Source of the DNA: a bacterium
GTDB taxonomy: Bacteria > Zhuqueibacterota > Zhuqueibacteria > Residuimicrobiales > Krinioviventaceae
Direction: 5' to 3'
Assembly (NCBI GenBank): GCA_029561455.1
Contig: JAKQIY010000041.1
Coordinates: 62,001 to 126,000, forward strand
DNA: 64,000 nucleotides
The translations under genes were made by a program, and so were the position numbers. Below, one piece after another: positions 8,047 to 54,213 of the stretch (positions within the stretch are counted from its first letter, which is position 1; every line of letters begins with the position of its first letter). The notes under the pieces are model-generated. The model did no database searches and was not told where the DNA came from. It worked only from the letters and a program-made list of their open reading frames with translations.

Positions 8047-9810
8047 TTATATCCCTTCATATAACCGCAAACCCAATTCCAGTAATTGTTCACTTTTAAC
8101 TGTAGAAGGTGAGCCATCCATAAGAGAAGATGCTGTTGCAGTTTTGGGAAAGGCAATTACATCGCGAATGGAACTGCAACCTGCCAGGATCATGATCATC
8201 CTGTCAAATCCAAAAGCAATTCCACCATGCGGTGGAGCGCCATATTTAAATGCTTCCATCAAAAACCCGAATTTACTTTGCGCTTCCTGATCGCTGATAC
8301 CCAGAGCGGTGAACATTTGGGCTTGTAACTCGGCGTTAGCAATACGAATACTTCCGCCGGCTATTTCCATACCGTTCAATACCAGGTCATAAGCCCGTGC
8401 GGTTACATGTTCCGGATCGGTCAGTAATTTATGCTCATCGGCCGGGATCGGCGAAGTAAAAGGATGGTGACAGGCAACCCAGCGACCTTCTTCGGCGCTG
8501 TATTCAAACAGCGGAAAATCGACAACCCAGGCCAGCTTATATGTATCTGCCGGGATCATATTCTGTTCACGGGCAATTTTCAGGCGCAGGTCGCCCAATA
8601 ATGGCAAGGCTACTTTTTTTACATCGGCGACAAACAACAAAAGATCGCCATCCTGGGCGCTACAGGTTTTAACTATTTGCTTACGTTGTTCATCGCTGAA
8701 AAATTTATCCAGAGTGCTGTCCCAGTCATCGCCTTTGACTTTGATTGCAACCAGGCCCTTGGCGCCTTGTTCTTTGGTCCAGCTGGTAAGATCGTCAATT
8801 TGTTTACGAGAAAATTTGCCGCCGCCAGGCACACAAATTCCAGCGACAACATGACCGGCTTTGACTGTTTGCGAAAATACATTAAATTCACAATGTTCTA
8901 CCAGCGAAGAGATATTGTTAATTTCCATGCCAAAACGTAAATCCGGGCGATCGATACCATACTTTTCCATGGCGGTTTTATAGGGTATGCGCTGGATTGG
9001 AGAGGGTATGGTAATGCCGAGTATTTCTTTCATGACGCGGGCAATCAAACCTTCCATGATCTTAAAGATATCTTCCTCGTCAATAAACGATAATTCCATA
9101 TCGATCTGGGTAAATTCCGGCTGGCGGTCGGCGCGTAAATCCTCATCGCGAAAACAGCGGACGATCTGGAAATAACGGTCGTAACCTGAAACCATTAAAA
9201 GCTGTTTATATTGCTGCGGAGATTGCGGCAGGGCATAAAATTTGCCCTTCCAGACGCGGCTGGGAACCAAAAAATCTCTGGCCCCTTCCGGGGTGCTCTT
9301 CATTAAATAGGGGGTTTCGATCTCTAAAAATTTATTTTCATCGAGGTAATTTCGGACTATTTGTGCGGCTTTATGACGAATGAACATGTTCTTTTGCATG
9401 TCCGGCCGGCGCAAATCCAGATAGCGATATTTTAAACGCAGGTCTTCGGAGGCATTTATATCGCCGCTGATCGGGATCGGGGGTGTTTCTGAGGTGTTTA
9501 ATATCTCTATTTCATTGGCAATCAATTCAATTTCTCCGGTTTTCAGCTTGACATTTGTCATTCCCTCAGGACGGCCTTCGACAATGCCTTTAAAAGCCAC
9601 AACATATTCATTACGTAACTTTTTAGCCTCCTCATAAGCAGCGGAAGCTGGATTAATTTGTATTTGGGTTACACCATAACGATCACGTAAATCTATAAAA
9701 ATCAAACCGCCATGGTCGCGCCGACGGTCGACCCAGCCCATTAAAATAGCGGTTTGTGATTTTTGCTTGCCGGTTAATTCTCCACAAGTATGTGTTCTCT
9801 TCCACTTCAT
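8047..9810 (-). CDS. aspS: Aspartyl-tRNA synthetase
   Basis: 587 residues, standard for bacterial AspRS. An N-terminal OB-fold anticodon-binding domain (GWVDRRRDHGGLIFIDLRDR at about 26-45) precedes the class II core with motif 2 (FRDEDLRADRQPEFTQID) and motif 3 (GIAFGFDRMIM), and the bacterial GAD insertion lies between about 285 and 420. It charges tRNA-Asp with aspartate in the cytosol. I did not try to judge whether it also recognises tRNA-Asn. The response-regulator gene follows 81 bases downstream. Confidence 0.97.
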   Translation of the reverse strand: MKWKRTHTCGELTGKQKSQTAILMGWVDRRRDHGGLIFIDLRDRYGVTQIQINPASAAYEEAKKLRNEYVVAFKGIVEGRPEGMTNVKLKTGEIELIANEIEILNTSETPPIPISGDINASEDLRLKYRYLDLRRPDMQKNMFIRHKAAQIVRNYLDENKFLEIETPYLMKSTPEGARDFLVPSRVWKGKFYALPQSPQQYKQLLMVSGYDRYFQIVRCFRDEDLRADRQPEFTQIDMELSFIDEEDIFKIMEGLIARVMKEILGITIPSPIQRIPYKTAMEKYGIDRPDLRFGMEINNISSLVEHCEFNVFSQTVKAGHVVAGICVPGGGKFSRKQIDDLTSWTKEQGAKGLVAIKVKGDDWDSTLDKFFSDEQRKQIVKTCSAQDGDLLLFVADVKKVALPLLGDLRLKIAREQNMIPADTYKLAWVVDFPLFEYSAEEGRWVACHHPFTSPIPADEHKLLTDPEHVTARAYDLVLNGMEIAGGSIRIANAELQAQMFTALGISDQEAQSKFGFLMEAFKYGAPPHGGIAFGFDRMIMILAGCSSIRDVIAFPKTATASSLMDGSPSTVKSEQLLELGLRLYEGI

Positions 9811-9840: not shown

Positions 9841-9880
9841 TTTTAAAAAAAACCGTCAGATAACTTTTACCTGACGGTTT
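9841..9880 (-). terminator. Rho-independent terminator after the 741-residue protein gene
   Basis: Stem AAACCGTCAG / CTGACGGTTT with a short loop, followed on the minus strand by a run of T. It lies about 60 bases after the stop at 9941 and ahead of aspS, closing the three-gene envelope cluster. Confidence 0.85.
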
Positions 9881-9940: not shown

Positions 9941-12166
9941 TTAATAATTAATTCTGAATACCGGTCCTAACATAAATACTTTATTATAAGCAAAAGTTTT
10001 AGTTTCATAAAACGCCAATTTTACATCGATCCACAAAGCGCCGGAAACTTTCATCCTGGTAGTAACTAAATGAGACCAGCGGTCGCCAACGCCGAAACGC
10101 CATTGCAAGATAAATTTGTCCACGCCGGTATTCTGATCCGGGTAGCCAAACTGTGTATCAATAAAAAACATTTGGACTTTATCCGGGTTGTCGCTGTTGT
10201 ATTCTATGGCGCCATCATTTCCTGGTAACCCGGAATGGAATACTCCATCTTCAATCATATTGTTTTTCTGTTCAAATAACTGGAACCAGGATAATCCAAT
10301 GCTGCGCAGGTAATAATTGCCTAATTCATAATCTGTTTCCCGGTCGAAATTCAAACCCAAACAAACACCGGTAAATTGTTTAATATACGTGTAGGTATTA
10401 TTAAATTCTGCCGCACCGGTAATATTATTATTACCGCCGATATTATGGGTTTCTCTGTAGGAAATCGGCAATTGCCAGGGTACGGAAATTTCAATATTGT
10501 CCAATTGCGGGAATTTATACCGGTTAGCCTTGCTGAAATTGAAGGTTTTGCTGGCTTCAAATTGTAAATTATTAAGAGCGATGCGGCGATTGACCAAATC
10601 ATCTCTCTTCAGGTACTTGTTATCAACAGCCTGCTCGACTTCATTGATCAGCTCATTCATTAATGGATTATAGGAGCGGAAATTAACTGAAACCTTATCC
10701 ACTATTTTGGTAATATCACGCATACTTTTGGAAAACTGCCAGTTCAGGTAAAGAGACTGGCTGCCGGCCCACACAAAGGGGTAATTGAGTTGTTCCTGGC
10801 CCAGGCACGTGCCAACAGTTATATAATGATTTTTAAGATTGATCGAAGAAGAAATATTATCAAAGCCTAACTGGAACAGATTGGTTTGATAATCTTTGCC
10901 TTTTACGGTTACGTCTGTGGAAGCGGCCCAATAACCGGAATTCAAATTAAAATATTTTTGCCACAGGGCATCCTCTTCCATGAATTGATAATAATCATTA
11001 CCAACATCGGTACTGGTTTTGTTGACTTGATCATCGGCATCGCGTGCATTAATACTCATGGAAACAAAAGAAACCAGGGAAAAGCTGTTTTCCACTGCAT
11101 TATCATACTCATTAGTGCCTTCGGCGGGAAGCTGTGCAACATTATAATTATTGGTCAGAATGGCTCTTACATCATCTTCCAGGCCGGTTTTTTCAATAAT
11201 ATTTTTGGCTATTCCTTTTAAATCGGCCCCGGCTTTGATAGAAATTTCATTTAATTGTTCACCGGTATACAGTAAATCGGCTTTGCCACGTTTAATACCG
11301 GACACAATAATGCTATCCATAAAAAACTCTGCGCCCTGGTTTTTAATATAATACCTGACGCTGAATTTGGACGGCCAGTTCTTACGGTTCAGGTTCAAAT
11401 CGGATGATTGCTTATAAGAATCCAGCCACAATTCTTTGCCCAATTCACCGGCTTCGCGTCCGCTTTTAAAAGCATTATTAACTTCGGAGCCTTTAAGGGT
11501 TTTTACTTCCTGGCCTTCTTTCAAGAATTTCAAATTAATGAGCCGTTTAAACCGTCCTGACCCTTTGGTGGTCATGACGATCTGATAATCGGAAATGTCT
11601 TCATCATTAAGAGCAATCCCCAAATTCAGTTTTTCATTGAGGCGGTCGATAAAGCGCCGGGTTTCATCGGGATTGATCTTTTTATCGAATACAAAGGAAT
11701 CGGTGCCGACTTCTTCAGCGCCGGCTTCGCGTGACAGGAATACTTCTTCTTTGCGGACAAATATTGGGTAATTTTCCATCAAGCGCGGATCAACGCTGGT
11801 TTCCTGATCGGAAAAACAATATTGCAATACCCGCACTGGCACATCGGGAACTTTGCCAGGATCATTCACTTCCAAACGGTCGGGGTTGCTTCTGCCGGCA
11901 TAACTGATTTCCAGTCTGGTCATTTTAGTTTGCCGTTCGGTATCATCAAACGCAAACACCACATCAATTTCAGTGGCGCCTGCTATTTCATTTTCGCCGA
12001 TTATATCACTTTTTAATAAATTCATAAAATCATTAAAAGCATTGCCGTTGTCCTGGTTCAAAGCCTTATTCGTATACCAGACTTCTTCGCTGGCATACTG
12101 AGAAAAAACCATGATCGGAAAACAGAACAGGAAAGTAAAAAATATTACTTTATTCCAGGCTTTCAT
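9941..12166 (-). CDS. Secreted, probably outer-membrane protein of unknown family
   Basis: 741 residues with a signal peptide (about 1-22, ending VFSQ). No domain recognised. The N-terminal half is mixed alpha/beta and charged; the C-terminal half (about 400-741) has many alternating aromatic/polar strands and ends in FRINY, an aromatic terminus typical of outer-membrane barrels. A strong Shine-Dalgarno (GGAGG, 5-base spacing) supports ATG 12166. It follows the single-pass protein gene by 14 bases and is closed by a terminator, so it is the last gene of a three-gene unit. By position it could be the outer-membrane part of a trans-envelope complex (inference). Confidence 0.75.
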   Translation of the reverse strand: MKAWNKVIFFTFLFCFPIMVFSQYASEEVWYTNKALNQDNGNAFNDFMNLLKSDIIGENEIAGATEIDVVFAFDDTERQTKMTRLEISYAGRSNPDRLEVNDPGKVPDVPVRVLQYCFSDQETSVDPRLMENYPIFVRKEEVFLSREAGAEEVGTDSFVFDKKINPDETRRFIDRLNEKLNLGIALNDEDISDYQIVMTTKGSGRFKRLINLKFLKEGQEVKTLKGSEVNNAFKSGREAGELGKELWLDSYKQSSDLNLNRKNWPSKFSVRYYIKNQGAEFFMDSIIVSGIKRGKADLLYTGEQLNEISIKAGADLKGIAKNIIEKTGLEDDVRAILTNNYNVAQLPAEGTNEYDNAVENSFSLVSFVSMSINARDADDQVNKTSTDVGNDYYQFMEEDALWQKYFNLNSGYWAASTDVTVKGKDYQTNLFQLGFDNISSSINLKNHYITVGTCLGQEQLNYPFVWAGSQSLYLNWQFSKSMRDITKIVDKVSVNFRSYNPLMNELINEVEQAVDNKYLKRDDLVNRRIALNNLQFEASKTFNFSKANRYKFPQLDNIEISVPWQLPISYRETHNIGGNNNITGAAEFNNTYTYIKQFTGVCLGLNFDRETDYELGNYYLRSIGLSWFQLFEQKNNMIEDGVFHSGLPGNDGAIEYNSDNPDKVQMFFIDTQFGYPDQNTGVDKFILQWRFGVGDRWSHLVTTRMKVSGALWIDVKLAFYETKTFAYNKVFMLGPVFRINY

Positions 12167-12180
12167 TCATTCCTCCATCA

Positions 12181-14163
12181 TTATTTATTGGGTAAATCCA
12201 ATGGCGTTATTCTTTTTTGCTGATTGTTTTCATATTTCAATTGATAATGCAACGTTACATCAATTCGGTCGCCTTGCGCAGCATTGTTCAAATAGATCAA
12301 ATCACCGGCCAGGTTATAAGAAAGGTTTGGCGAATATTTTGATCGTGCCTCTACCCGGTCGATCTTTACTTCATCATCGAAATAATCGCGAAAATCTATT
12401 TTTGCTGTATAAATTCCGGTGCTGCCGTCGCTTCTGATAATTAAATTCAGATCGGTTTCCGGCACGCTTTGCACCATGAACCGGCGCAGATGACTGTGAT
12501 TGCTTCTGGTCGTTACAATCAAATCCACATATTTTACATCGCGACCAACCGTGTAGCCAAAATAACCCAGATCATTAGGATTTTCTGTTCTAACCTCGCC
12601 GTTGCTGGAGCGAACTTTGATCTCTTTGATCAGATTGGTGTTTACATTTTTCAATGAATAAAATATATTTACGTTCCTGGTCTCAAATACTAACGCCTGA
12701 CCGGAGGTTTGCTGGCTGTTGACGGGATATCGGTTTTCATCGCGATAGGTGCGTACAAAAGTATCCAGTAAATCCTTTTCATGGCCCTGCATCCGTTGCG
12801 GGGTTATCGGCGGCCACACCTGGAAACGATAGGGGATAACTTCTACCAGCCAGTTCCTGGTCCGTTCCACAGCGCCGGCAAAGGCATGTAAAGACACATT
12901 AACAAACGTATTGCCGCGAACATTAACATCCTGGGTAGTGCTGACGGGAATATCAATATCCAGAACCGTCCGTTGATTCGACGAGGTAATGCTCATACCA
13001 TTCGGCAGTGGTTGAGGATTACCATCCGTCAAGGTGGAAATATCCAGGTTATTCAACAATACTTTACCTTCAACGCTTAATGTAAAACGGTCTATCGGAA
13101 AGGTAGCGGACACGGTCTGTTTATAGGTGGTACCCACAGGAATATTGAGGCGTACCTGGTAGCCTTCCGGCGGATAGATCAATTGAAAATCTGTTGCTCC
13201 CCTGGGACCCACATGAAAAATGTGCATCGGGCAGGTAACGCCGCCGGAGGATACTTCCTGAATAATATCCGCATAATTGCCAGCCAGTTGCGCGGCTTCC
13301 GGAATATTAAAAATCACCGGAAAGTAAACCCGGGCGTCATCAAGGGTAACATTATCAATTGTGTAGGTGCCGTTTAAAAGATTAATTTTAAAAATATCGG
13401 TGGTAAAACGCGACTTTTTCTGGTTGGACGTTCCCGCCGAACCACTGCCCGGCTCGGAAACGGAACCAATTTTTTGCACATCCAGCAATATATTTTTATC
13501 CGCAGAATATGCAACATTAATTCTTTCATCGGTTAATTTTATTCGTTTATATACATAAAGATGGGTAATATCTTTAGTATGATTTAGTTCAAGGTTGTCA
13601 TAAAAATCGTTGCCGCGTTTTTCCAGGTTTACGGTTAGAGATGATTTTTTGCTGTTTTCAAATTTAGTAATAGTTGTGGTATTGTTTTGCCGTTTTATTT
13701 GATAGGTAAAATTGTACATCTGGTAATTGTTTTTATTTTTGTAAAAAAAGTATATTTCATCCTGGTCATTAAAACTGGTATCGGGAATGACCAATTGCAT
13801 AATATTTCTTCTTTGTTCTTTTCTGTCTCTGGTATCGGTGGTTGCCGGGTCTTCCGTAACAGAAACCTGGTTGCCAAATTCACCCTGCAGCCGGTATTCC
13901 GTTCTGCCTTCCGGGTTTATTACAATTTCATCAATCTGTTTGGCCAGCTTGAAAGAAAAAATATGTCTTCCGGAAACCAGCGGCCAGTAGTTCCTCATTT
14001 CATTGAGAGAATCGCCGATGACGATACTGCCGTTGTTGGTTAGTATTTCCCGCGTCAGTTCGTTTTTGGGCTGATCAAGTAAATGAGGATTGATAAACTT
14101 TAAATAGGCCGTTACCAAAAACATCATTATATATAAAATCATAATTATCGCATTACGACTCAT
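12181..14163 (-). CDS. Single-pass inner-membrane protein with large periplasmic region (GldM-like layout)
   Basis: 660 residues. One hydrophobic helix at 5-22 (AIIMILYIMMFLVTAYL) begins almost at the N-terminus, and the rest is a long, beta-rich, Asn/Thr-rich extracytoplasmic region with a Gly/Ser linker (GSVSEPGSGSAG, about 237-248). No family recognised by sequence. One short N-terminal helix plus several periplasmic beta domains is the layout of GldM/PorM of type IX secretion motors, and the polytopic gene directly upstream fits a GldL-like partner; sequence identity to GldM is not evident to me. Starts 60 bases after the 361-residue gene and ends 14 bases before the outer-membrane gene. 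Confidence 0.75.
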   Translation of the reverse strand: MSRNAIIMILYIMMFLVTAYLKFINPHLLDQPKNELTREILTNNGSIVIGDSLNEMRNYWPLVSGRHIFSFKLAKQIDEIVINPEGRTEYRLQGEFGNQVSVTEDPATTDTRDRKEQRRNIMQLVIPDTSFNDQDEIYFFYKNKNNYQMYNFTYQIKRQNNTTTITKFENSKKSSLTVNLEKRGNDFYDNLELNHTKDITHLYVYKRIKLTDERINVAYSADKNILLDVQKIGSVSEPGSGSAGTSNQKKSRFTTDIFKINLLNGTYTIDNVTLDDARVYFPVIFNIPEAAQLAGNYADIIQEVSSGGVTCPMHIFHVGPRGATDFQLIYPPEGYQVRLNIPVGTTYKQTVSATFPIDRFTLSVEGKVLLNNLDISTLTDGNPQPLPNGMSITSSNQRTVLDIDIPVSTTQDVNVRGNTFVNVSLHAFAGAVERTRNWLVEVIPYRFQVWPPITPQRMQGHEKDLLDTFVRTYRDENRYPVNSQQTSGQALVFETRNVNIFYSLKNVNTNLIKEIKVRSSNGEVRTENPNDLGYFGYTVGRDVKYVDLIVTTRSNHSHLRRFMVQSVPETDLNLIIRSDGSTGIYTAKIDFRDYFDDEVKIDRVEARSKYSPNLSYNLAGDLIYLNNAAQGDRIDVTLHYQLKYENNQQKRITPLDLPNK

Positions 14164-14223
14164 GGATTATCATCCCTTTTGTTGTACATACTGTCACTTT
14201 TATTTTCATCATTGCCGGAGATA

Positions 14224-15309
14224 TTATTTAATGTTGATTTTCGCATTATTTAATGCAATTTTAATTCCTTCGGCTATTTCTTCAGGATTGATCTGTACTT
14301 TTTGCACATCAACAACTGCGGCTTCCCTGACTCCTCCTTTAACCGATTGAATTTCTTTTCTGCCGACTGTTTCTTTGGGACGATATTGTTTGGGGAATTT
14401 ATAACCCAGGTAAAACGCGCCGACTTCGGCAAGACCGCCCAGCACCATAATAAAATGCAACTGGCTGAATCCCCATTTAAATGCGGCTATCTGCGAGATT
14501 GTCTTGTAATCCGGCATTATGCCGATCATTAAATACCAGGTATCCCAATAATATTTAAAATCTAAAAGCTGGTTTTCTTTAAAAAAGATGATACCGATAA
14601 TAGCAAAAATCATGGGGATAATACCCAGGTTCATGATCTTGGTAGGGATAATACTGAAAAACCCACGCCGGAATTCTACAGATTTTTGCGCCACCTTGTT
14701 TTTGGTAAATTGAAATGCGCTTATAAACGGCACCAGTACCGCAAATAAAAATGCGATTGAACCGACCCAGAAAAATACCAGGCCGATTGCCATTTTAAAC
14801 CGGGACGGCGTTTCAAAGTCGGCCAGATCATTGGATATCTTTAAAACATCAACAAATTTTTGGCTGTAGCCGGTAAATGAAAAAACAAAAAATAAAAACA
14901 AGATAAAAATCAAAAATACCGGAACATGCCACAGCTCATCGGTCGAGTCGATTTCATTTTGCGGATAATAATATGTTATTTCATTAACATACTGTTGAAT
15001 TACTTCGTCGGTATAATTGGTATTTCCGGTAGCGCGTAACACCTTTTCCAGAACGCTTCTAATTTCATCTTCAGTTGAACCAGAGCTGCCCGGCCAATCG
15101 GTTACAAAAGAAATTAAAAAATCCTTGAATCGTTTTAAAATCGGACGGTTCTTGTTTTTTTCACAAATCTGGTTAAACTCTTTGATGATGTTTTCTTTTG
15201 ACGCTTCATCAATTTTGCATTTGATCTTTTTTTCGCTTACTTTTTGATCTATTCTGGAAAAGATTCTTTCAATATTTTCATTTGAAATATCATACCGAAA
15301 GCTAAACAT
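14224..15309 (-). CDS. Polytopic inner-membrane protein with a GldL-like final helix
   Basis: 361 residues. A cytoplasmic helical region (1-125) precedes four predicted membrane helices at about 128-147, 173-197, 225-243 and 284-303, then a 55-residue soluble tail. The last helix (HFIMVLGGLAEVGAFYLGY) carries Glu295 within the membrane and is preceded by AAFKW; this resembles the FK.MHWP ... GLGTEA.IFF segment of GldL/PorL, whose membrane Glu is used in proton-driven motion. The resemblance is short and seen by eye. It is the first gene of a three-gene unit, with Shine-Dalgarno GGAGGAAG before the ATG. Alternative: an unrelated membrane protein of unknown function. Confidence 0.72.
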   Translation of the reverse strand: MFSFRYDISNENIERIFSRIDQKVSEKKIKCKIDEASKENIIKEFNQICEKNKNRPILKRFKDFLISFVTDWPGSSGSTEDEIRSVLEKVLRATGNTNYTDEVIQQYVNEITYYYPQNEIDSTDELWHVPVFLIFILFLFFVFSFTGYSQKFVDVLKISNDLADFETPSRFKMAIGLVFFWVGSIAFLFAVLVPFISAFQFTKNKVAQKSVEFRRGFFSIIPTKIMNLGIIPMIFAIIGIIFFKENQLLDFKYYWDTWYLMIGIMPDYKTISQIAAFKWGFSQLHFIMVLGGLAEVGAFYLGYKFPKQYRPKETVGRKEIQSVKGGVREAAVVDVQKVQINPEEIAEGIKIALNNAKINIK

Positions 15310-15497: not shown

Positions 15498-15533
15498 CAA
15501 AAATATAAAACGGCACCAACAGATGGTGCCGTA
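15498..15533 (-). terminator. Rho-independent terminator of the ATP synthase operon
   Basis: Perfect stem CGGCACC / GGTGCCG (extended by one or two pairs) around a short loop, followed on the minus strand by TTTTATATTTTT. It lies about 60 bases after the atpC stop at 15590. The rest of the 280-base gap up to 15310-15497 is AT-rich and should hold nothing coding. Confidence 0.88.
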
Positions 15534-15589: not shown

Positions 15590-15994
15590 TTACATTTTAG
15601 CAACTTCAAGTCTGTTTAAAGCTCGTAACAAAGCGGCTTTGGCGCGGGGAATATCCGTATTTTCCGCTTTTTCTTGTAATCGTTTCATTGCTCTGTCCCG
15701 AGCCCGCTGCGCTCGTTCCAGGTCGATAGAAGCGGCGTCTTCTGCGGCTTCTGCTAAAATTAACATGGTATTCCCTGTGACCTGAACGAAACCTCCGCAA
15801 ACGGCAAAACACTTATTTTCTTTACCCATTTCGGCTTTGATGTTCCCGGTCTTTATTACCGTTAAAAACGGTATGTGCTCCGGTTTAACGCCAAAATACC
15901 CATTATATCCGGGCGCCTTAACATGGTCGACCGGGTTCGAAAAAACAATCTTTTCGGGGGTTATGATTTCCAGTTTTAAATTTTTATCAGTCAT
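15590..15994 (-). CDS. atpC: F1Fo ATP synthase subunit epsilon
   Basis: 134 residues. The N-terminal beta-sandwich is typical (KLEIITPEKIVFSNPVDHVK, then GYFGVKPEHIPFLTVI and VCGGFVQVTGN), followed by the C-terminal helical hairpin (ASIDLERAQRARDRAMKRLQ). Epsilon joins the central stalk to the c-ring and can inhibit ATP hydrolysis through its C-terminal helices. Last gene of the operon, 21 bases after atpD and followed by a terminator. Confidence 0.95.
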   Translation of the reverse strand: MTDKNLKLEIITPEKIVFSNPVDHVKAPGYNGYFGVKPEHIPFLTVIKTGNIKAEMGKENKCFAVCGGFVQVTGNTMLILAEAAEDAASIDLERAQRARDRAMKRLQEKAENTDIPRAKAALLRALNRLEVAKM

Positions 15995-35422: not shown

Positions 35423-36868
35423 TTATTTCATTATAGCCAGTTTTTTAGTCAGGACAACATCCTGCGCCGTTAGCCTGTAAAAATAAACACCGGAAGAAAC
35501 CAAACTGCCAAACTCGTCGCTGCCGTTCCATTGAACGGTATAACGGCCGGCTTGTTTGTTATGGTCAACCAGCCGCTTGACTAATTGGCCGGTGGTGTTA
35601 AAGATTTCCAGTTTTACGGGAACTGTGCCATTCTGTAAATTTGGTACATCAAACGTAATCATGGTATTCATGTTGAATGGATTCGGGCTGTTTTGGAATA
35701 ATGAAAAATGTTCCGGGACAACGGTTGCAGCACTATATTGTCCATAAATTGTCTGCATGGGGGTCGCGCCGGATGTTCCTGCCAGGGCTTTGACAATTTC
35801 CAATACACCCTCCTGAACTTGTTGTTTTTGTACAGTTACCGGCAGATTAAACAGGGTCGACTGTCCGGCAGGGATTGCCTGGCCTTCAATGCCACACAAC
35901 AAAATACTCAGTTTGCCGTCGGCTCGCTTGCTCACCAGTGTCATACTTTTTGCAGCATCTGTTAATACCGGTGCATCAATCATGAAATCTTTGCCGGCGG
36001 CATCTATCACCATCTGCAAACCATGCAATGGAGCGGATGTATTAACCTGTACCGGAATGTTAATTTTACCGGTAAAGTTTGCCGGGATTGACGGCATATC
36101 AATTTTTACACTACCCTGGGCAGCTTTAGCCAACGGGGTCACCGCCGCCGCTACACCAGGATTGACCGACTCATCCATTGCGGCAGAAATATCGACAATA
36201 GTAATCAGGCCGTCATCGTCGCTGTCCGCCGCCCAGCGTTCATAGGCGGTTGGTACAGGGGGGCGATCCAGGGCTATATCGATAATACGTAATACATCGA
36301 ACAAATCGACTACGCCATTATAGACAACATCCAGCTTGGTGCCGAACCAGAAGGTATTGTTAACCGCCGTTACCGGAGTAATGGGGTTGTTGGACGTATT
36401 GGCCAGGCTTACGTTACTTAGAGTTAACGCTGCGGTTGAACCACCCGGGGTTCCAGCGCGGACGGTAACTGCGATGGACAGAATATCGGTTCCCGGTTCG
36501 GTATTATCTATTGCCAAAACCTGGGCGTTGTCGTTGGGAAGTAATAGAACTTTGATTACTCCACCGACCTGGTTATAATAGGCAGTGAAATTTGCCGCGG
36601 CTGCGCCAAGCACGGTAACGCCATTGGCCGTTAACGAGTCCGGCGCTGCGGAAAGTTGAAAAGAAACGCCTTTAACGGTTGCCGGATTTAACAAGCGGAT
36701 GTAAATTAGTCCGTCATCGCCGGGTAAGGCAAAAAGCCCATCCGTCGGGGCGACTGTTCCTTTGGATACTTCAAGTTTGTATCCTTGCGAAAATGCCGGT
36801 ACCCCAAAACATAATACAAAAACAAATATTGCAAGAATCAGGGCCGGTATGGTTGATGATCGTTTCAT
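35423..36868 (-). CDS. Secreted cohesin-dockerin-cohesin protein with T9SS-type sorting domain
   Basis: 481 residues from ATG 36868, five bases after a GGAGG site; an ATG one codon upstream is too close to the ribosome site. Signal peptide 1-28. Residues 30-170 form a cohesin-like domain (GVSFQLSAAPDSLTANGV), about 178-235 a dockerin-like Ca-binding pair (NGVVDLFDVLRIIDIALD, DSDDDGLITIVDISAAMD), 250-370 a second cohesin-like domain (LHGLQMVIDAAG), and the last 95 residues a sorting domain (NSPNPFNMNTMITFDV, SGVYFYRLTAQDVVLTKKLA, terminal IMK). Both binding partners and a surface anchor in one chain. Confidence 0.85.
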   Translation of the reverse strand: MKRSSTIPALILAIFVFVLCFGVPAFSQGYKLEVSKGTVAPTDGLFALPGDDGLIYIRLLNPATVKGVSFQLSAAPDSLTANGVTVLGAAAANFTAYYNQVGGVIKVLLLPNDNAQVLAIDNTEPGTDILSIAVTVRAGTPGGSTAALTLSNVSLANTSNNPITPVTAVNNTFWFGTKLDVVYNGVVDLFDVLRIIDIALDRPPVPTAYERWAADSDDDGLITIVDISAAMDESVNPGVAAAVTPLAKAAQGSVKIDMPSIPANFTGKINIPVQVNTSAPLHGLQMVIDAAGKDFMIDAPVLTDAAKSMTLVSKRADGKLSILLCGIEGQAIPAGQSTLFNLPVTVQKQQVQEGVLEIVKALAGTSGATPMQTIYGQYSAATVVPEHFSLFQNSPNPFNMNTMITFDVPNLQNGTVPVKLEIFNTTGQLVKRLVDHNKQAGRYTVQWNGSDEFGSLVSSGVYFYRLTAQDVVLTKKLAIMK

Positions 36869-37310
36869 CATACCCTCCATATATCATTTTAGTTTTTACT
36901 CTCTGGTTAATTATAGTTTCATCTTTAAACAGGCAGTGTCTCTAAATGAAACGCTTGTGATTAAAAACACAATATCTGAAAAAAAAACTGTACCTAATTA
37001 TCCACCTCCTTCCACGCACCGGGCGTTTTTACGGCCCGGAAAAACTTCTTTTAACTTGTTAATATTATTACATTAATCTCTTTGTTCATTTTAGTATTTT
37101 TTATTGGTATATCATTTGCTTTGTTTTATTCTGTTCTTTACGAATTTTCTTATCTCTATATATGCAACGTACATGCCATTATTAATAATTCCTTTTTTGC
37201 CTTTATACAAAGGGAATATTATGCATTTTTTTATTGTATAGAGCATTATTTTTAATTACTTTTATTATTATATTTTGCAGAAATATTGCTGTACAAAATT
37301 AAGGAAAACT
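36869..37310. other. AT-rich divergent intergenic region
   Basis: 442 bases between divergent genes, presumably carrying promoters for both. It holds a GC-rich hairpin CCGGGC/GCCCGG (37019-37039). On the minus strand this is followed by AAGGAGGTGG (37012-37003), a full Shine-Dalgarno match with no obvious ORF behind it. Otherwise long A/T tracts; no RNA gene recognised. Confidence 0.55.
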
Positions 37311-46303: not shown

Positions 46304-49228
46304 TTAATAAAGGGGCGAACCCTTCATATAGATTTTAATCTCGATGCGCCGGTTGAGAATGCGCCCGGAAGACTTTTCATTATCGCCGATCAGCACCACC
46401 TCGCCGGTCAATCGTTCAATTTGCAGGGGATTATACTCGCCAAATCCCTGCGTCTGGTCGACACGGCTGACAATACTGTCATAATAATTCGGATGTTTCT
46501 TTTTCAGGTATTCTTTGAAAATCTCATAAAAGCTGTTGGCGCGCCGGTCCGACAGCCGCTCGTTGATGGCCGAAGAGCCGGTTGCGCAGGCATGGCCGCT
46601 AAAGGCAATGCGCATAGCCGGATTTTCCAGTAATATGCTGGCCTGTTCAAACAATTTATCCAGGTAGAAATCATACAACGGATCGGTTTGCGCAAATTTA
46701 AGCGGTACAGCAATACGCTGTTCACGGGTAAAGTCCCGTTTATGCATCAACACTTTTTTCGGTTGGGTGCGGAAGGTTCGGCCCAATGTGTCGGTAAAGA
46801 GGATATGGTATTCCGCTTCTTTTTCATCCCAGTACAGGTCTTCTTTATTCACCGGCAGCCATTCGACATTTTTATTGATCTTGCTGCCACTGGCCAGGCT
46901 AAGCGAAATAGTATCTTTAATACCGCGACCATAATACAAAGAAAAAGCCTCGGCAGCAGGAACGGCATATTTTAACTCGGTTTTAAAAATTATGTGTTTC
47001 AACAAGGTTTCATTGTCGCGGTGTTCAACCGGTAAAAATAACGGATCCTGGCCGACCGAATCCGAGGAGATTTGCACCATACGGCGTTCTTCAAAAATCC
47101 ATTGCGCGTCTTCCGGGTTGGAAGGAACCCGGCGTGACGGCAGTACCTGCCCCGCGGCAATCCTGATCTGGTTGGGCCGTACACCCCGGTTTAACAGCGT
47201 ATCCCGAACCGCGCGGGCGCGTTGATCGGCCAGCTCTTTGGTTGCGTTTTCCGAATTGGTATCGGCATAACCCTGTAACTGGATTTTATACTGAGGATAG
47301 CGCACCAACCGTTCGGCTATGATACTGAGATGCGGATCGAAATTGGAAAAGGTCAGATAATCGGGGGCGACATCCGCTTTATTAACATCAAAAGTAATTT
47401 CCGTTACTATCGGCATGGTAATAACTACCCGAGAATTGATCAGAGCCAGCGCCGTATCCGCAGTAGATATTTGTCCTTTAGGTATGGTATATTCATCCTG
47501 GATCAGGATATTATTTTTCTTGTCCCATTCCACCAGTTTGTTTTCCACATCGGCACAGGCAATAATTTCATGTTTACCCAGCCAGCGGCTGTACCAATCC
47601 AGGTGGATGGTTTTTTGCTTGCCGGGAACCAGCGAATCGATGGTCGTTTTGGATAGCAACCGGGTAAACGGTTCATTTTGATATGATTCGTCCAGTTGTT
47701 CTTTAAACACGCCAAGCGAGTCCGTAATATTGACAATAAAATTCCTGGCAACCCGATCGCCGATATTGGAAACCGTTACCCGCAGGGCGCCGTGATATTC
47801 ATCCAGCGTGATCCAGGGACTGTAATCGAACTCGATCTTTTCAATATTAATATCCGGCATGGGCACATAGAACCGGGCGATATATTTATCATCTTTTTCC
47901 GCCATGCGCACATGGTTATCTTGATCGACAGCGCACACCGCCCAATAATAATTACCGCCAAAAGCCTGGGTAAACAGGTAATCGTTCTTTTGGACAGCGG
48001 TTTTTACCAGAAAATTGGAAACATTAATGTACTGCAACAACATATCCGGATCGTCCCTGTATAACTGGTCGATGCGGGCCATTTTTACGCTATCCTGATC
48101 GATGAGCAGGGTATACGCCACATCATCAAACAAATCGGGATCGACCGTGCCCTGCCATTTAACCAGCACGGTATCGGTTAAAAAGGTATCCACGTCGGCA
48201 GTGGTCAAAAACTTGAATTTTTCAGGCCCGATGGGATAATGACTCATTGTGCCGCGATAGGTGCGGTTAAAAAAGTCCGCTTCGTTCATGGATGCCAGAT
48301 CGACGCGCATGGCATTGTTGCGTCCGGGGAATACATCTCCCAGCGAAGCAATATTCACATCGTCCAGCCTGAGACTGGCGCCAATGGATAATTTTTCGAA
48401 CAGGTCGTTATCAAAATTATAACCGCCATTAATAGATAAAGTGCGGTTAAGCGTAACTTCGGCGCCGATACCCAGCACATCCTTTTCATCTTTAACCTGC
48501 TGGTAATCGGCGGTTAATAAAACCTGCACGCCCTTGTGCGAACCGGTGTAAAAAGCCAGGCCGGCGCGCATGGTTTGCGGTAATGGCGTTCCGGTCTGGT
48601 TAAACAGCATGTCGTTGCCTAGCTGGGTAATTGCCACACCCATAGAAACAATACCATACGGAAACAGCGGATTACCCATGGTAAAGCGCGGGGTACGCAA
48701 GGACAGCCCGGTATCGAACACCCAGGTTGACGCGCTGTATTCATCGAGATTACTTTGTAAATATTTAAAATTTGCGCCCAACGCTATATTTCTTGATAAA
48801 AACGTTAACGGCTGGCCGATGCTGACTGCCGCCACCATATCATTATAAGAAGCCGACGGCATAGCCTCATCGGTACTGTCAAATTCCGGCATACCCTGGT
48901 AAAGCAGGCCCAGAGCCAGCCGTGTCTGCCGGCTCCAGGGAGTGGGAATTTTTTGTCCGTATATGAACGAGGCGTTGGAAATATCGGCAATCCATTTAGT
49001 ATAGGAAGCCGCCCATTGCCATTCCCGTAAAAATCCGGTAGCGGCTGGATTGGCATAAATGGCATGCGGATCGTCAATCACCCCGGTGTGAGCGGCGGCC
49101 ATAGACTGTAATCGTGCGCCCGGCAGCATCTTTAAAAAAGCCGATCCGGCCCGTATCTGAGCGTACAGATTTCCGGTTATAAAAAACAACAGAACAAGAA
49201 TAAACCAGCGTATTTCTTTGCTTTTCAT
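46304..49228 (-). CDS. PorV/PorQ-like outer-membrane barrel fused to CARDB-like and two OmpA-like domains
   Basis: 974 residues with a signal peptide (1-23). Residues 24-300 match the PorV/UPF0164 barrel pattern: RAGSAFLKMLPGARLQSMAAA, then ANPAATGFL and repeated strands ending SIGASLRLDD. Residues 333-455 look like a fibronectin-type domain, 460-580 a CARDB-like domain (ALRVTVSNIGDRVARNF), and two OmpA C-terminal-like domains follow at about 610-722 (FDVNKADVAPD, GYADTNSENATKELADQRA) and 842-966 (SGHACATGSSAINERLSDRRA). OmpA domains bind peptidoglycan, so the protein should tie the outer membrane to the wall. Three bases after the DUF11-repeat gene and closed by a terminator. Confidence 0.85.
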   Translation of the reverse strand: MKSKEIRWFILVLLFFITGNLYAQIRAGSAFLKMLPGARLQSMAAAHTGVIDDPHAIYANPAATGFLREWQWAASYTKWIADISNASFIYGQKIPTPWSRQTRLALGLLYQGMPEFDSTDEAMPSASYNDMVAAVSIGQPLTFLSRNIALGANFKYLQSNLDEYSASTWVFDTGLSLRTPRFTMGNPLFPYGIVSMGVAITQLGNDMLFNQTGTPLPQTMRAGLAFYTGSHKGVQVLLTADYQQVKDEKDVLGIGAEVTLNRTLSINGGYNFDNDLFEKLSIGASLRLDDVNIASLGDVFPGRNNAMRVDLASMNEADFFNRTYRGTMSHYPIGPEKFKFLTTADVDTFLTDTVLVKWQGTVDPDLFDDVAYTLLIDQDSVKMARIDQLYRDDPDMLLQYINVSNFLVKTAVQKNDYLFTQAFGGNYYWAVCAVDQDNHVRMAEKDDKYIARFYVPMPDINIEKIEFDYSPWITLDEYHGALRVTVSNIGDRVARNFIVNITDSLGVFKEQLDESYQNEPFTRLLSKTTIDSLVPGKQKTIHLDWYSRWLGKHEIIACADVENKLVEWDKKNNILIQDEYTIPKGQISTADTALALINSRVVITMPIVTEITFDVNKADVAPDYLTFSNFDPHLSIIAERLVRYPQYKIQLQGYADTNSENATKELADQRARAVRDTLLNRGVRPNQIRIAAGQVLPSRRVPSNPEDAQWIFEERRMVQISSDSVGQDPLFLPVEHRDNETLLKHIIFKTELKYAVPAAEAFSLYYGRGIKDTISLSLASGSKINKNVEWLPVNKEDLYWDEKEAEYHILFTDTLGRTFRTQPKKVLMHKRDFTREQRIAVPLKFAQTDPLYDFYLDKLFEQASILLENPAMRIAFSGHACATGSSAINERLSDRRANSFYEIFKEYLKKKHPNYYDSIVSRVDQTQGFGEYNPLQIERLTGEVVLIGDNEKSSGRILNRRIEIKIYMKGSPLY

Positions 49229-49230
49229 AG

Positions 49231-52200
49231 TTATCTCACAATTATTAATTTTTTCCAGTCCTTAAACTCACCGGATTGCAATGTGATCAGGTACACACCG
49301 CTACCCACTTGAACGCCGTTTTCCAGCATGCCGTCCCATAACCAGGAATTCCAGCCGCCATTAAAAACATCTTCGGTCAGCTTGGTAATATGCCGGCCGC
49401 TGACATCATACACATCCAGCCGCGCCAGTCTTTGATATCCCAGCTTGAAACGAATATTAACATAATCTTCCAGTTCCGGTTTATAGACATTCCGGTCAAG
49501 CACCATGTGATCGCCGCTACGCACCAGTAACTGAGTCTGCGCTGTTCCCCTGGCGCCGCGCCGGTTGACAGCATGTAATTCTATGATCACCAGGTCTTCG
49601 TTAGTGGCGCCAACCAGTTTAGTCTGGTTGTACCAGTCTGTTATATCGAGCCAGACATCCGGGGTTGGCGACGGGTTTTGGTCTATGAACAGATCGGCAA
49701 AGGTACTATCCACCTGGCCGTTTGGCAGGCGTACCCACAAATCCCACTCCGTTACCTGTACGGGTATGCGAATGCGCACCTGGGCGCTATCGGTAACATC
49801 GATCACCGCAGGATTAACCTGGATTTCCGGAGTAAATGGCGGCGGTTCGGGCACATAATTGAATACCGTATTCAATGATAGATTATTATTTTGTTGTGGT
49901 GTATTCTCGTTTGTTGCGGATATGGTTACACGGTTTATCAACATATTGGTTCCCACCGGCATCCATGCGGCCACCTGAACATCAAAAGCAAACACAACCT
50001 GTGCATTGGGTTGTAAAGAATCCAGCCGCCAGGTAGCCGCTCCGGTTGTTGTTTCCGCCGGAGGGACATTGAAATTACTTATTATAACGGAATCGGGGAA
50101 ATTGCTGGTTATTTGTACATTGATAGCAGCTACCTGTCCGATATTTTTGGCAATAATATAATGGGGATAAAGTTCGCCTTCACGGGCAAATTTTAATGTA
50201 TCGACGCCGCTCACTGCAAAGGAATCCGGCAGGGCCAGTTGCTGCGGAACCACATCGACTAGCTCACCGGCGCCCTGCTTTTGTAATATATAGATTAACG
50301 CCGATGCGTTATTATTGCCGGCAACCGTATCGCGCGGGGCGGAAATATGCGCCGTAGCATTGACCGGGTAGGGAAATTCCGGCGCGGTTTGCGGCGCGGT
50401 GGCGGTGAACAATGCTGTCCATGTTGTTGCGCCGGCCAGGGTATCGATGCTCCAGAACAAGGTATCGTTATCTGCAACCGGAGTTATGGAAAAATCCGAC
50501 AATTCCAGGATTCCGGGAATAACAGAGCGTAACGAGATAGAGCCGCCCGGTTTGGCGCCGGAATTAATGACCTGGAGCCGGTATTGAAAAGAATTTCCGG
50601 CAACCACGGCTTTATAGACCGCCTCACTTAATTCCAGGGTTGTATCTGTCAAAGCCTCAAGCGTAACATAGGCGTCGAACCGGTGCTTGTCCACCGGGCC
50701 AACCGGCTTGTGCGCTACCCGGACAGTGTCCGCAGCCGAGTTGTTATTATCCGTAGAATCATTGGCCGCATACATCAGGGTTTTGCTGATCAACCGGTCA
50801 ACAGTTGCCGACACGCTGCCGGAGAGCGCGACATTGACGCTCCAGGTGGTATCCTGTCCCGAAGGCAGGTTGCGGATGCGCCAGAACAAACTATCGCCAA
50901 GCTGGAGATAGGGGGTAATAACGGCAGAAGTGAAACTCACATGAGCGGGTAGTTTTTGAATGACTTCAATGGTATCGGCGCTATTCGGGCCGTTATTATT
51001 AATAGTAATAGTATAGCGATACTCACTGCCCGGCTTGACGGCTTTCCATTCCTGTTCATCGTCAATAACAGTGGTGTCGGTCAACGATGACATTTGTAAC
51101 GCCAAATCGGTCATTTTAACACCGGGACCAACCGGTTTACGCACTATTTTTACGGTATCGGCGTCGCTATTATTGTTTAAAGTGGAATCATTGTCCGCAT
51201 AAAGTAATGCGCTGCCGGTTAACCAGTTAATAGCTGCGGGAACATTGTTTGACAGGAAAACATTTACCGTCCAGGTAGTGTCGCGCTTTGCAACCAGGTT
51301 GCGAATCCGCCAAAACAGGCTGTCACCCTGTTGACGATATGGTGTAATTGCGGCGGATTTAAAAGTTACATTCGCCGGTAATTGCTGAATGATTTCTATG
51401 GTATCGGCAGGATTCGGGCCGTTATTGCTGATATCCAGGCGGTATTGATAATTGCCGCCCGGCTTGACGGCGTTCCAGGTACGACCACCGTCAGTTACGG
51501 TTGTATCGGTCAGCGAAACCATTTGCAAAGCCAGGTCGGTCATTTTTTTAGCCGGCCCAACCGGTTTGCGTACTATTTTCACAGTATCGGCATCGGCGTT
51601 GTTGGTAGTGGTTGAATCATTACTTGCCGTCATTAATGCCGTACTTGTCAGCCAGGTTATTGCCTCGGGAACGTTGCCTGATAAAGTAACCTCTACTGTC
51701 CAAGCTGTATCCCGGCTTGCCGCCAGGTTATGGATATTCCAGTACAGACTGTCACCCTGCTGACGATAGGGAGTAATTGCGGCGGATTTATAACTCACAT
51801 TGGCCGGCAACTTTTGCGCTACAGTTATAGTATCGGCGGCATTGGGGCCGTTATTATCAATGGTAATAGTATAGTGATAATTGCCGCCCGGTTTAACGGC
51901 GTTCCAGGTGCGATCGTCATCAATCACAGTGGTATCGGTCAGCGAAACCATTTGCAAAGCCAGGTCGGTCATTTTCTTTCCGGGACCCACCGGGTTACGT
52001 ACTATTTTTACCGTGTCGGCGTCGCTATTGTTATAATTAGTAGAATCATTAACGGCCGTTTCTGTGACGGTCGCTGTCAGCCAGTCAATTCCATCGGGAA
52101 CAGTGTTGGCAAGAGTAACATTTACCAGCCAGGTGGCGTTATTGCCGGCCGCCAGTTCAGCAAGGTTCCACACCAGACTGTCGCCCTGCCACTGAAAAGG

Positions 52201-54213
52201 CTGCAGTGTAGTGCTGTTAAATTGCACATAGGCGGGTAATTTTTGCACAATTCGCAGCGTTTGCGCCGGATGAATTCCCTGGTTATGTAAAGAAACCCTA
52301 TATTGGTAATCCGCGCCCGGTTTGACCGCGTTTCTTTCCCGGTTGTCAATAATTACAGTCGTATCAGTTATTGCTGCAAGAGTAACCGCGACATCAGTTT
52401 TTGCCGGGGGCAGTATCTTTTCAATAACATAAACCAGATCTGTCGCGCTGTTGTTGGCCGGATTATCATCGAGAGGATGAGCGACAACTGCAAAATGCTG
52501 AATCTCAAAGGGGTATGCGGTAACCTGAGAAGAGACGTATGCATTGAATTGCACCTGGCGATTATCTAACGGCGCCAGAACGCCAAACTGCCAGAATAAC
52601 GTATCACCATTTTGCCGCGTCGGCGGGGTGGTAAAACCGGATAAAGTGACTGAATCCGGTTTCAGGCTCCACAACACCGCATTGGCGGCAGTTTCCGGGC
52701 CATTATTGATTACCTGTAATGTGACCGGGTAATTTTCACCGGGATATATTGCTTTAACTGTAGTATTATTTATTGTCGTGGTCTTGCCGGTTTGCGCCTG
52801 CATAGTGAGGGCCAGGTCGGCAGCAGGCTTGGCGGCGATCGCCTTAACCGTATCCACATCGGTATTGTTAAGCGCCAGGGTATCGTTTACCGCCGTCACA
52901 TATCCTTTGGTAATTACCAGGTTTTCAGCTAACGGTAATTTAACTTTGACTGTTGCGGTAAAGGGAATGACCTTTACTTCATAGGGAAGGAACAACGGAA
53001 AATTCCACACCAGGGAATCGGCATTATGCCAATTGGGGGTTACGACTGCATTTTTATAATTAACCAGCGGGGAGAGTTTGCTGGAAATTTTTACTATTTT
53101 TGCCGTATCGGGGGAGACGTTAGTAATGCGCAGGGTATATTGAATATCTTCATTTTCCCTGGCGATGTTTAAAGATCCCTCGGCGGAAATATCAACGGAA
53201 TCAGTGACCGACTCGATGCGGAGGGCAAGATCGGCTTTTTCCTGGTGCGGCCCGCCGTTGTCGGTCAGGGACCAGAATTGTCCGATTGCCGTATTATTTA
53301 CAAGATTAATATCATTAGGGGCGTCCAGCATCGCGGGGCATTCCAGCAAGGTATAGCCGTCCGGCATGGTTGCAGCCAGGCGGCCGGTGATCGTTACAGT
53401 AAAGGTGTTCTGCGGCTCCAGGTCCGGCACATCCCACAACAAGGTATCACCTACCATTGCTTTGGGTGTAATAGAGAACACCCGGTTTTGCAGAGCCACA
53501 GGCAGAGCTCCTTTTAACACTGCATAGCGCAGCCGGTTTTCGTTTATGTTCTGCGCGCGCAGGGTAATTGTTACCTGTTCACCGGGATAAGCAACCTGGC
53601 GTAGTTCGCCGTTATAGAGCCGGATTCTTGCCGTCTGCACATTCACCTGGACGGCGCCATCAATCCGTGGCTCGGCAATTACAGTCAGCACGCTGTCAAT
53701 ATAAACGCTTTCCGCGCCGCCTTCCTCGGTGGTGCCGCCCATTGGCGGATGCAGGAATTGCGGATATTGCTTGTAGATTTCTCCATAATGATGCAGACGA
53801 ATCGTGCTTGTCCCTTGCTTGAAATAGAACAGCCCGGCATTTTCAAAGACCGAGACCGTATCCATACCCACCGAATCGGCAACTACACGGTAAGGTCCAG
53901 CATTCGGATCTTCTGGGGTTGAAACAGTGCCGTCGCTATGATGTACCGTTAAAAAATAACTTTCGTTCAATTGGTGATCGCCGCTGTCGTGCGCCATGCG
54001 CGGATATAACCGGTAATACCCCGGATAGTGTACCTGGATTTGCACCATATCGGCAACCATTTTTGTTGGCCCCTTGTCTACACGCACACCAACGTATGCA
54101 AAAAGGCTGAAATCTTCTATCGGTTGTAATTGCGCCTGGACGAGGAAAGGAAAAAGGAGCACGGCAAAAAATAAACAAAGAAACCCTTGTTTAAAAAATG
54201 CAGGTGTTTTCAT
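49231..54213 (-). CDS. Giant surface protein with tandem DUF11-type repeats and C-terminal sorting domain
   Basis: 1660 residues, the longest gene here. Signal peptide 1-27 (ending LVQAQ). About ten beta-domains of the DUF11/CARDB type follow (ITVAQKLPANVSYKSAAITP, then SLYWNIHNLAA and NADADTVKIVRKPVGP). Four central copies are exactly 143 residues apart. The C-terminus is a sorting domain: YVNIRFKLGYQRLARLDVYD, VSGRHITKLTEDVFNGG and SGVYLITLQSGEFKDWKKLI. Probably a long extracellular fibre or adhesin secreted by a type IX-like route. The PorV-OmpA fusion gene follows after two bases, so the two are co-expressed and may work together. Confidence 0.88.
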   Translation of the reverse strand: MKTPAFFKQGFLCLFFAVLLFPFLVQAQLQPIEDFSLFAYVGVRVDKGPTKMVADMVQIQVHYPGYYRLYPRMAHDSGDHQLNESYFLTVHHSDGTVSTPEDPNAGPYRVVADSVGMDTVSVFENAGLFYFKQGTSTIRLHHYGEIYKQYPQFLHPPMGGTTEEGGAESVYIDSVLTVIAEPRIDGAVQVNVQTARIRLYNGELRQVAYPGEQVTITLRAQNINENRLRYAVLKGALPVALQNRVFSITPKAMVGDTLLWDVPDLEPQNTFTVTITGRLAATMPDGYTLLECPAMLDAPNDINLVNNTAIGQFWSLTDNGGPHQEKADLALRIESVTDSVDISAEGSLNIARENEDIQYTLRITNVSPDTAKIVKISSKLSPLVNYKNAVVTPNWHNADSLVWNFPLFLPYEVKVIPFTATVKVKLPLAENLVITKGYVTAVNDTLALNNTDVDTVKAIAAKPAADLALTMQAQTGKTTTINNTTVKAIYPGENYPVTLQVINNGPETAANAVLWSLKPDSVTLSGFTTPPTRQNGDTLFWQFGVLAPLDNRQVQFNAYVSSQVTAYPFEIQHFAVVAHPLDDNPANNSATDLVYVIEKILPPAKTDVAVTLAAITDTTVIIDNRERNAVKPGADYQYRVSLHNQGIHPAQTLRIVQKLPAYVQFNSTTLQPFQWQGDSLVWNLAELAAGNNATWLVNVTLANTVPDGIDWLTATVTETAVNDSTNYNNSDADTVKIVRNPVGPGKKMTDLALQMVSLTDTTVIDDDRTWNAVKPGGNYHYTITIDNNGPNAADTITVAQKLPANVSYKSAAITPYRQQGDSLYWNIHNLAASRDTAWTVEVTLSGNVPEAITWLTSTALMTASNDSTTTNNADADTVKIVRKPVGPAKKMTDLALQMVSLTDTTVTDGGRTWNAVKPGGNYQYRLDISNNGPNPADTIEIIQQLPANVTFKSAAITPYRQQGDSLFWRIRNLVAKRDTTWTVNVFLSNNVPAAINWLTGSALLYADNDSTLNNNSDADTVKIVRKPVGPGVKMTDLALQMSSLTDTTVIDDEQEWKAVKPGSEYRYTITINNNGPNSADTIEVIQKLPAHVSFTSAVITPYLQLGDSLFWRIRNLPSGQDTTWSVNVALSGSVSATVDRLISKTLMYAANDSTDNNNSAADTVRVAHKPVGPVDKHRFDAYVTLEALTDTTLELSEAVYKAVVAGNSFQYRLQVINSGAKPGGSISLRSVIPGILELSDFSITPVADNDTLFWSIDTLAGATTWTALFTATAPQTAPEFPYPVNATAHISAPRDTVAGNNNASALIYILQKQGAGELVDVVPQQLALPDSFAVSGVDTLKFAREGELYPHYIIAKNIGQVAAINVQITSNFPDSVIISNFNVPPAETTTGAATWRLDSLQPNAQVVFAFDVQVAAWMPVGTNMLINRVTISATNENTPQQNNNLSLNTVFNYVPEPPPFTPEIQVNPAVIDVTDSAQVRIRIPVQVTEWDLWVRLPNGQVDSTFADLFIDQNPSPTPDVWLDITDWYNQTKLVGATNEDLVIIELHAVNRRGARGTAQTQLLVRSGDHMVLDRNVYKPELEDYVNIRFKLGYQRLARLDVYDVSGRHITKLTEDVFNGGWNSWLWDGMLENGVQVGSGVYLITLQSGEFKDWKKLIIVR
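50642..52789. repeat. Tandem 429-bp coding repeats inside the giant surface protein gene
   Basis: The same DNA landmark (GTATCGGTCA or close variants) recurs at 51074, 51503, 51932 and 52361, exactly 429 bases (143 codons) apart, with a further copy at 50642 (432). Units share long identical stretches, for example at 51501-51545 and 51929-51973. Recent duplication within the gene is likely. Confidence 0.88.

Follow-up and report, generated by a model that had tools for sequence, protein, structure and literature searches.

What a set of three envelope proteins does between atpC and aspS, and whether it is a diverged motor of the type IX secretion system (T9SS), are the questions raised by the 64,000-nucleotide stretch of DNA from the KSB1 phylum that was analyzed here (the window). 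The three adjacent genes encode an inner-membrane protein (L), a protein with one N-terminal helix and a long predicted periplasmic part (M), and a predicted outer-membrane protein (OMP). The original prediction had compared L and M with GldL and GldM of T9SS. Our analyses gave little support to that kinship and led us to tentatively favor a different reading, in which a genus-specific trans-envelope complex, possibly an ion-driven motor, occupies the place of an ancestral complex resembling the Agl/Glt machinery, the proton-driven, gliding-type kind of motor found at this site in most relatives.

Structure, conservation and distribution of the gene trio

The three minus-strand open reading frames lie at exactly the coordinates predicted earlier (Table 1), separated by gaps of 60 bp (L–M) and 14 bp (M–OMP), and the anticipated terminator closes the trio. 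Strong ribosome sites had been predicted for all three genes; the Shine–Dalgarno sequences were indeed strong for L (GGAGGAAG) and OMP (GGAGGAATG), but that of M was weaker. Hydrophobicity profiles bore out the four helices of L, with peaks starting at residues 129, 175, 225, and 284, and also the lone helix at the N-terminus of M (residues 6–24), which contains no acidic residues. Net positive charge in the TM2–TM3 loop and at the C-terminus of L fits an N-in/C-in topology. Glu295 is located in the last helix of L, as predicted, and is also present in the orthologue of the genus-mate. The C-terminus of OMP, predicted to be barrel-like, showed only weak strand alternation and no family match. 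A recent foreign origin of the trio was rejected, as its GC3 (0.40–0.44) was close to that of the neighboring genes (0.43–0.50) and gave no clear signal.

Table 1 Features of the trio and the flanking genes in the window.
Feature	Position	Strand	Description and basis
L	14224..15309	minus	Inner-membrane protein, 361 aa; ORF and hydrophobicity
L architecture			N-terminal soluble domain of ~125 aa, 4 predicted TM helices, short C-terminal tail
TM3 of L (residues 221–250)	14560..14649	minus	Most conserved stretch of L
TM4 of L (residues 282–306)	14392..14466	minus	Motif GGLxExxAFYLGxxFP, including Glu295
Glu295 codon of L	14425–14427	minus	Inside TM4
M	12181..14163	minus	660 aa; 1 N-terminal TM helix and ~635 predicted periplasmic, strand-rich residues (strands from a low-confidence model)
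N-terminal helix of M (residues 1–25)	14089..14163	minus	MSR..I.M.LY; conservation windows
OMP	9941..12166	minus	Signal-peptide protein, 741 aa; outer-membrane location predicted
C-terminal half of OMP (residues 421–741)	9944..10906	minus	Ends in GPVFRINY
Stem-loop closing the trio	9850..9880	minus	Intrinsic-terminator-like; 14-pair stem with a trailing T run
Stem-loop between atpC and trio	15510..15532		Bidirectional, terminator-like; stem search
aspS	8047..9810	minus	Downstream edge of the slot; ORF and aspS/atpC search in relatives
atpC	15590..15994	minus	Upstream edge of the slot; ORF and aspS/atpC search in relatives

The only other searched genome of the genus, a candidate division KSB1 metagenome-assembled genome (JAFGSB010000059.1), has the order atpD-atpC-L-M-OMP-aspS, with the trio in the identical place and in three intact frames. 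Protein identities between the two genomes were 36% for L, 29% for M, and 41% for OMP, compared to 77% for aspS. Identity by codon position peaked at position 2 in L, M, and OMP (0.50/0.63/0.37 for L). Since the frames are intact in the genus-mate and identity is highest at the second codon position, the trio represents real, constrained genes, and the sequence comparison indicates that their products are under purifying selection. Conservation was concentrated in certain parts of the proteins. TM3 was the best window of L (24 of 30 residues identical), TM4 with Glu295 had 14 of 25 identical residues, and the N-terminal helix of M had 13 of 25, a level reached by only 3 of the 636 windows of M. 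In OMP, residues 421–741 were 52% conserved versus 31% for the N-terminal domain. These peaks in TM3, the M helix, and the C-terminal half of OMP form the pattern expected if the core were an L–M membrane complex with an outer-membrane part.

No significant above-cut-off family match was found for the trio or its orthologues in Pfam, NCBIfam, or PHROGs, and sequence and profile searches of the PDB returned nothing relevant. AlphaFold2 models built from the two-sequence alignments (pLDDT 41 for L and 35 for M) were too poor for a fold search. The three-compartment layout would match a trans-envelope bridge for lipids or polymers, with L as the permease part, M as a strand-rich bridge anchored by one helix, and OMP as the outer-membrane acceptor, and M was predicted, with low confidence, to be strand-rich throughout. 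However, Pfam and NCBIfam searches linked none of the three proteins to the MCE, TamB/AsmA, Lpt, or Wz families, and the unit includes no ATPase gene; we regard such a bridge as unlikely.

The trio was present in 2 of 82 genomes of the KSB1 phylum. It was absent from the other genera among the 59 in the phylum according to single-sequence and two-sequence-profile searches, which a very diverged copy of such fast-evolving genes could escape. Nor was it found in aspS/atpC neighborhoods with readable flanks in sister genera (G003, G004, G006, and G008), on viral contigs, or on plasmids. A wider contig scan recovered the genus-mate alone, at a low sensitivity with two short peptide patterns usable. 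One match in another genome (G080, E = 0.003) contained internal stops and was discarded as noise.

Comparison with GldL, GldM and the type IX secretion system

SprA was found in all 82 genomes searched and is intact in the host genome (2077 aa, 897 bits). With SprA in 82 of these genomes but L, M, and OMP in only 2, the trio cannot serve as the lineage's general T9SS motor, and the co-occurrence with SprA expected for such a motor was not observed. GldL gave no above-cut-off match in the 82 genomes (eight weak partial matches), and GldM gave no match; no control genome exceeded the cut-off for either protein. The two proteins are thus probably absent from the phylum, with the reservation that the control genomes yielded no above-cut-off match either. 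Canonical gldL/gldM genes elsewhere in the genome, which would also have spoken against the T9SS-motor reading, were not recognizable in the genome or the phylum by these searches, which had no positive control.

The T9SS context claimed for the window stood in part. A PorV-family protein (46304–49228, minus strand) and one T9SS sorting domain (35423–36880) passed their cut-offs, and another sorting domain (49231–54213, minus strand) fell just below. The PorV-family part is joined with a CARDB domain and OmpA domains in a single protein, and the sub-cut-off sorting domain belongs to a 1660-aa protein with at least 8 DUF11 repeats.

Glu49 of GldL is essential for secretion in Flavobacterium (PMC8986121). 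We compared L and M with GldL and GldM using reference sequences recovered through PDB matches. The two pairs share a general build: the first gene encodes an inner-membrane protein whose last helix holds a conserved Glu, and the next gene a protein with one helix and a long part in the periplasm. L has the GldL trait of a conserved last-helix Glu (Glu295 in both orthologues, at most a putative counterpart of Glu49), and M has, like GldM, a single N-terminal TM helix. Short stretches around this Glu and at the start of M also showed local resemblance. TM4 of the genus-mate L (GGLTEAAAFYLGFRFP) aligned without gaps with GldL TMH2 (GLLTEALIFALSAFEP), with Glu49 as the shared Glu and a column-shuffle p of ~0.02, and MSR..I.M.LY of M has the same Arg-Tyr spacing as PRQKMINLMY of GldM. 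These features, together with the gene order of L then M as in gldLM, could reflect a highly diverged true GldL/GldM pair, in which TM3–TM4 of L would be the GldL hairpin, Glu295 would be Glu49, and Arg3...Tyr11 of M would be Arg9...Tyr17 of GldM.

Most of the comparisons, however, argued against such a pair, which we consider very unlikely. In the profile–profile alignments by hhalign, the Glu of L was placed on that of GldL and the N-terminus of M on that of GldM, but with P values of 0.4 and 0.24. Neither an HMM of five PDB GldL sequences nor a GldM HMM picked out L or M from 451 ORFs at a useful score. The NCBIfam GldL family (TIGR03513) did not match L at E ≤ 5, and the GldM family (TIGR03517) had no significant sequence match to M. 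In background tests, an unrelated DUF6057 helix scored higher against GldL TMH2 than TM4 of the genus-mate, L of the window matched TMH2 best by TM2 instead of TM4, and the two M orthologues ranked only 3rd and 15th of 171 against GldM. We therefore rejected the motif resemblance as proof of homology, since unrelated helices match equally well or better. The FKxxH motif is missing in L, where the two orthologues have FFKEN and FFREE and no His. The architectures also differ: GldL has two TM helices and a C-terminal cytoplasmic tail, whereas L has four and a large N-terminal domain, and the third gene of the trio is neither gldN nor gldK but codes for a protein predicted to lie in the outer membrane. 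Moreover, the trio is confined to one genus, in contrast to the phylum-wide SprA.

ExbB- or TonB-type genes were observed near sprA in three genomes. In one genome (G056, L072:61–4654), a peptidase-like gene and an ExbB gene come in that order after sprA, and in another (G052, L071:2498–8395) the same order continues with ExbD- and TonB-like genes. The ExbB-type genes after sprA in these two genomes are candidates for the T9SS energizer in a phylum without recognizable GldLM. In the host genome (contig C36, L061:681–14777), sprA is located near a TonB-like gene (TonB_C, 2.3e-6), adjoining genes resembling an LptF/LptG pair.

The atpC–aspS slot in related genomes

A combined search for aspS and atpC across relatives showed that the two genes are either adjacent at 138–154 bp (G010, G014, and G018), 7–12.5 kb apart, or unlinked. 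We read 11 intervals (L032–L045) from six families and found a conserved 7–12.5 kb Agl/Glt-like cluster, whose families were assigned on the cluster of one genome (G019) and read in the others by size, order, and sequence. It encodes TPR proteins of ~600–970 and 1360–1550 aa, a small protein of ~125–145 aa, a MotA/TolQ/ExbB protein (PF01618, 8e-23), two members of the ExbD/TolR family (PF02472), and a further protein that carries the AgmX/PglI C-terminal domain and matches GltG as well (NF033768, 1e-24; NF033760, 5e-24). A few of the members vary from genome to genome, and the shortest cluster (G038) lacks the first TPR protein. Another relative (G004, L055:4542–11476) carries two tandem gene pairs after atpD, beside the ATP synthase genes; each pair encodes a membrane protein of the DUF6057 family and a beta-propeller protein with PD40 repeats.

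In its composition, the slot cluster corresponds to the Agl/Glt core complex known from Myxococcus gliding, and related core clusters have been described in Gammaproteobacteria and Fibrobacter (PMC3169522). The combination of ExbB, two ExbD, a GltG/AgmX-type protein, and TPR proteins in one cluster was also found in a second, paralogous cluster of the host genome (contig C80, L060:4413–12279), with the order TPR, TPR, a 127-aa protein, ExbB, ExbD, ExbD, and an FHA-GltG-AgmX protein. The ExbB class of this paralogous cluster occurs in most of the phylum.

The slot ExbB is 64–78% identical across families, and a profile built on it separated orthologues (E ≤ 1e-94) from paralogues (E ≥ 1e-58). 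Orthologues were present in 64 of the 82 genomes and were absent, by this search, from the host genus and, with the exception of g2, from the remaining genera of its family, as well as from g8/g14. In the aspS tree, the host genus was placed among cluster bearers, apart from the g3–g7 clade of its GTDB family, which lost the cluster (support 1.0 for this clade; deeper nodes weak). In the simplest scenario, the site ancestrally held the cluster, which was lost in the host genus, where the trio now stands in its place.

The trio showed no similarity to the slot-cluster proteins (hhalign P of 0.37 for L against the slot ExbB) and no PF01618 or PF02472 match, and the idea that it is a decayed or diverged slot cluster was dropped for lack of similarity. 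Compared to the Agl/Glt core complex (AglRQS, GltC/D/E/G), the trio shares the slot and a predicted envelope-spanning layout, but lacks the ExbB, ExbD, TPR, and AgmX domains altogether. With the 5:2 ion-driven motors MotAB, ExbBD, and TolQR (PMC9389320), it shares the general layout of a multi-TM protein and a single-helix periplasmic protein in one operon. The acidic residue in the helix of MotB/ExbD is lacking in M, which is GldM-like in that respect.

A possible motor-like complex in a former motor slot

The suggestion that the trio is ion-driven draws on Glu295, the helix-centered conservation, and the nature of the replaced genes. In such a complex, the TM3–TM4 hairpins of several L subunits would pack around the M helices, Glu295 would be protonated and deprotonated during ion passage, and the movement would be relayed through the long strand-rich periplasmic part of M to OMP in the outer membrane. 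The output would be surface material that is moved or exported. The order and place of the trio are kept in the genus's only other searched genome, which favors a motor, but sequence and profile tests revealed no homology to known motor subunits. The trans-envelope complex with a membrane Glu proposed originally is plausible, independently backed by its position in an Agl/Glt-like slot, while its T9SS part is not upheld.

The trio may instead be a genus-specific complex for envelope or surface-layer assembly that transduces no energy, its location being coincidental and the cluster having been lost first. The proteins are fast-evolving orphans relative to aspS, and three relatives (G018, G014, and G010) lost the cluster independently with nothing in its place, which also weighs against a motor: because of these losses, taking over the slot does not imply taking over the function. 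Furthermore, since the second Agl/Glt-like cluster persists in the genome, the genus need not have given up any motor function. We nevertheless find an unpowered complex somewhat unlikely, because the best conservation lies in the membrane helices and not in the surface parts, and a conserved mid-helix Glu calls for a reason.

To our knowledge, ion-driven envelope motors fall into only a few families. The stronger form of the motor-like reading is a new family of trans-envelope motors, unrelated in sequence to MotAB, ExbBD, TolQR, and AglRQS and with no more than a remote kinship to GldLM, that replaced an Agl/Glt-like motor in one genus by a non-homologous swap at a fixed locus. We regard this stronger form as unlikely. 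For the phylum as a whole, the presence of SprA throughout, the lack of recognizable GldL/GldM, and the occurrence of TolQR/Agl-like clusters suggest that an energizer other than GldLM may power T9SS there. For the genus, a further motor layout at a former gliding-type slot, if true, would show how motors are exchanged in evolution.
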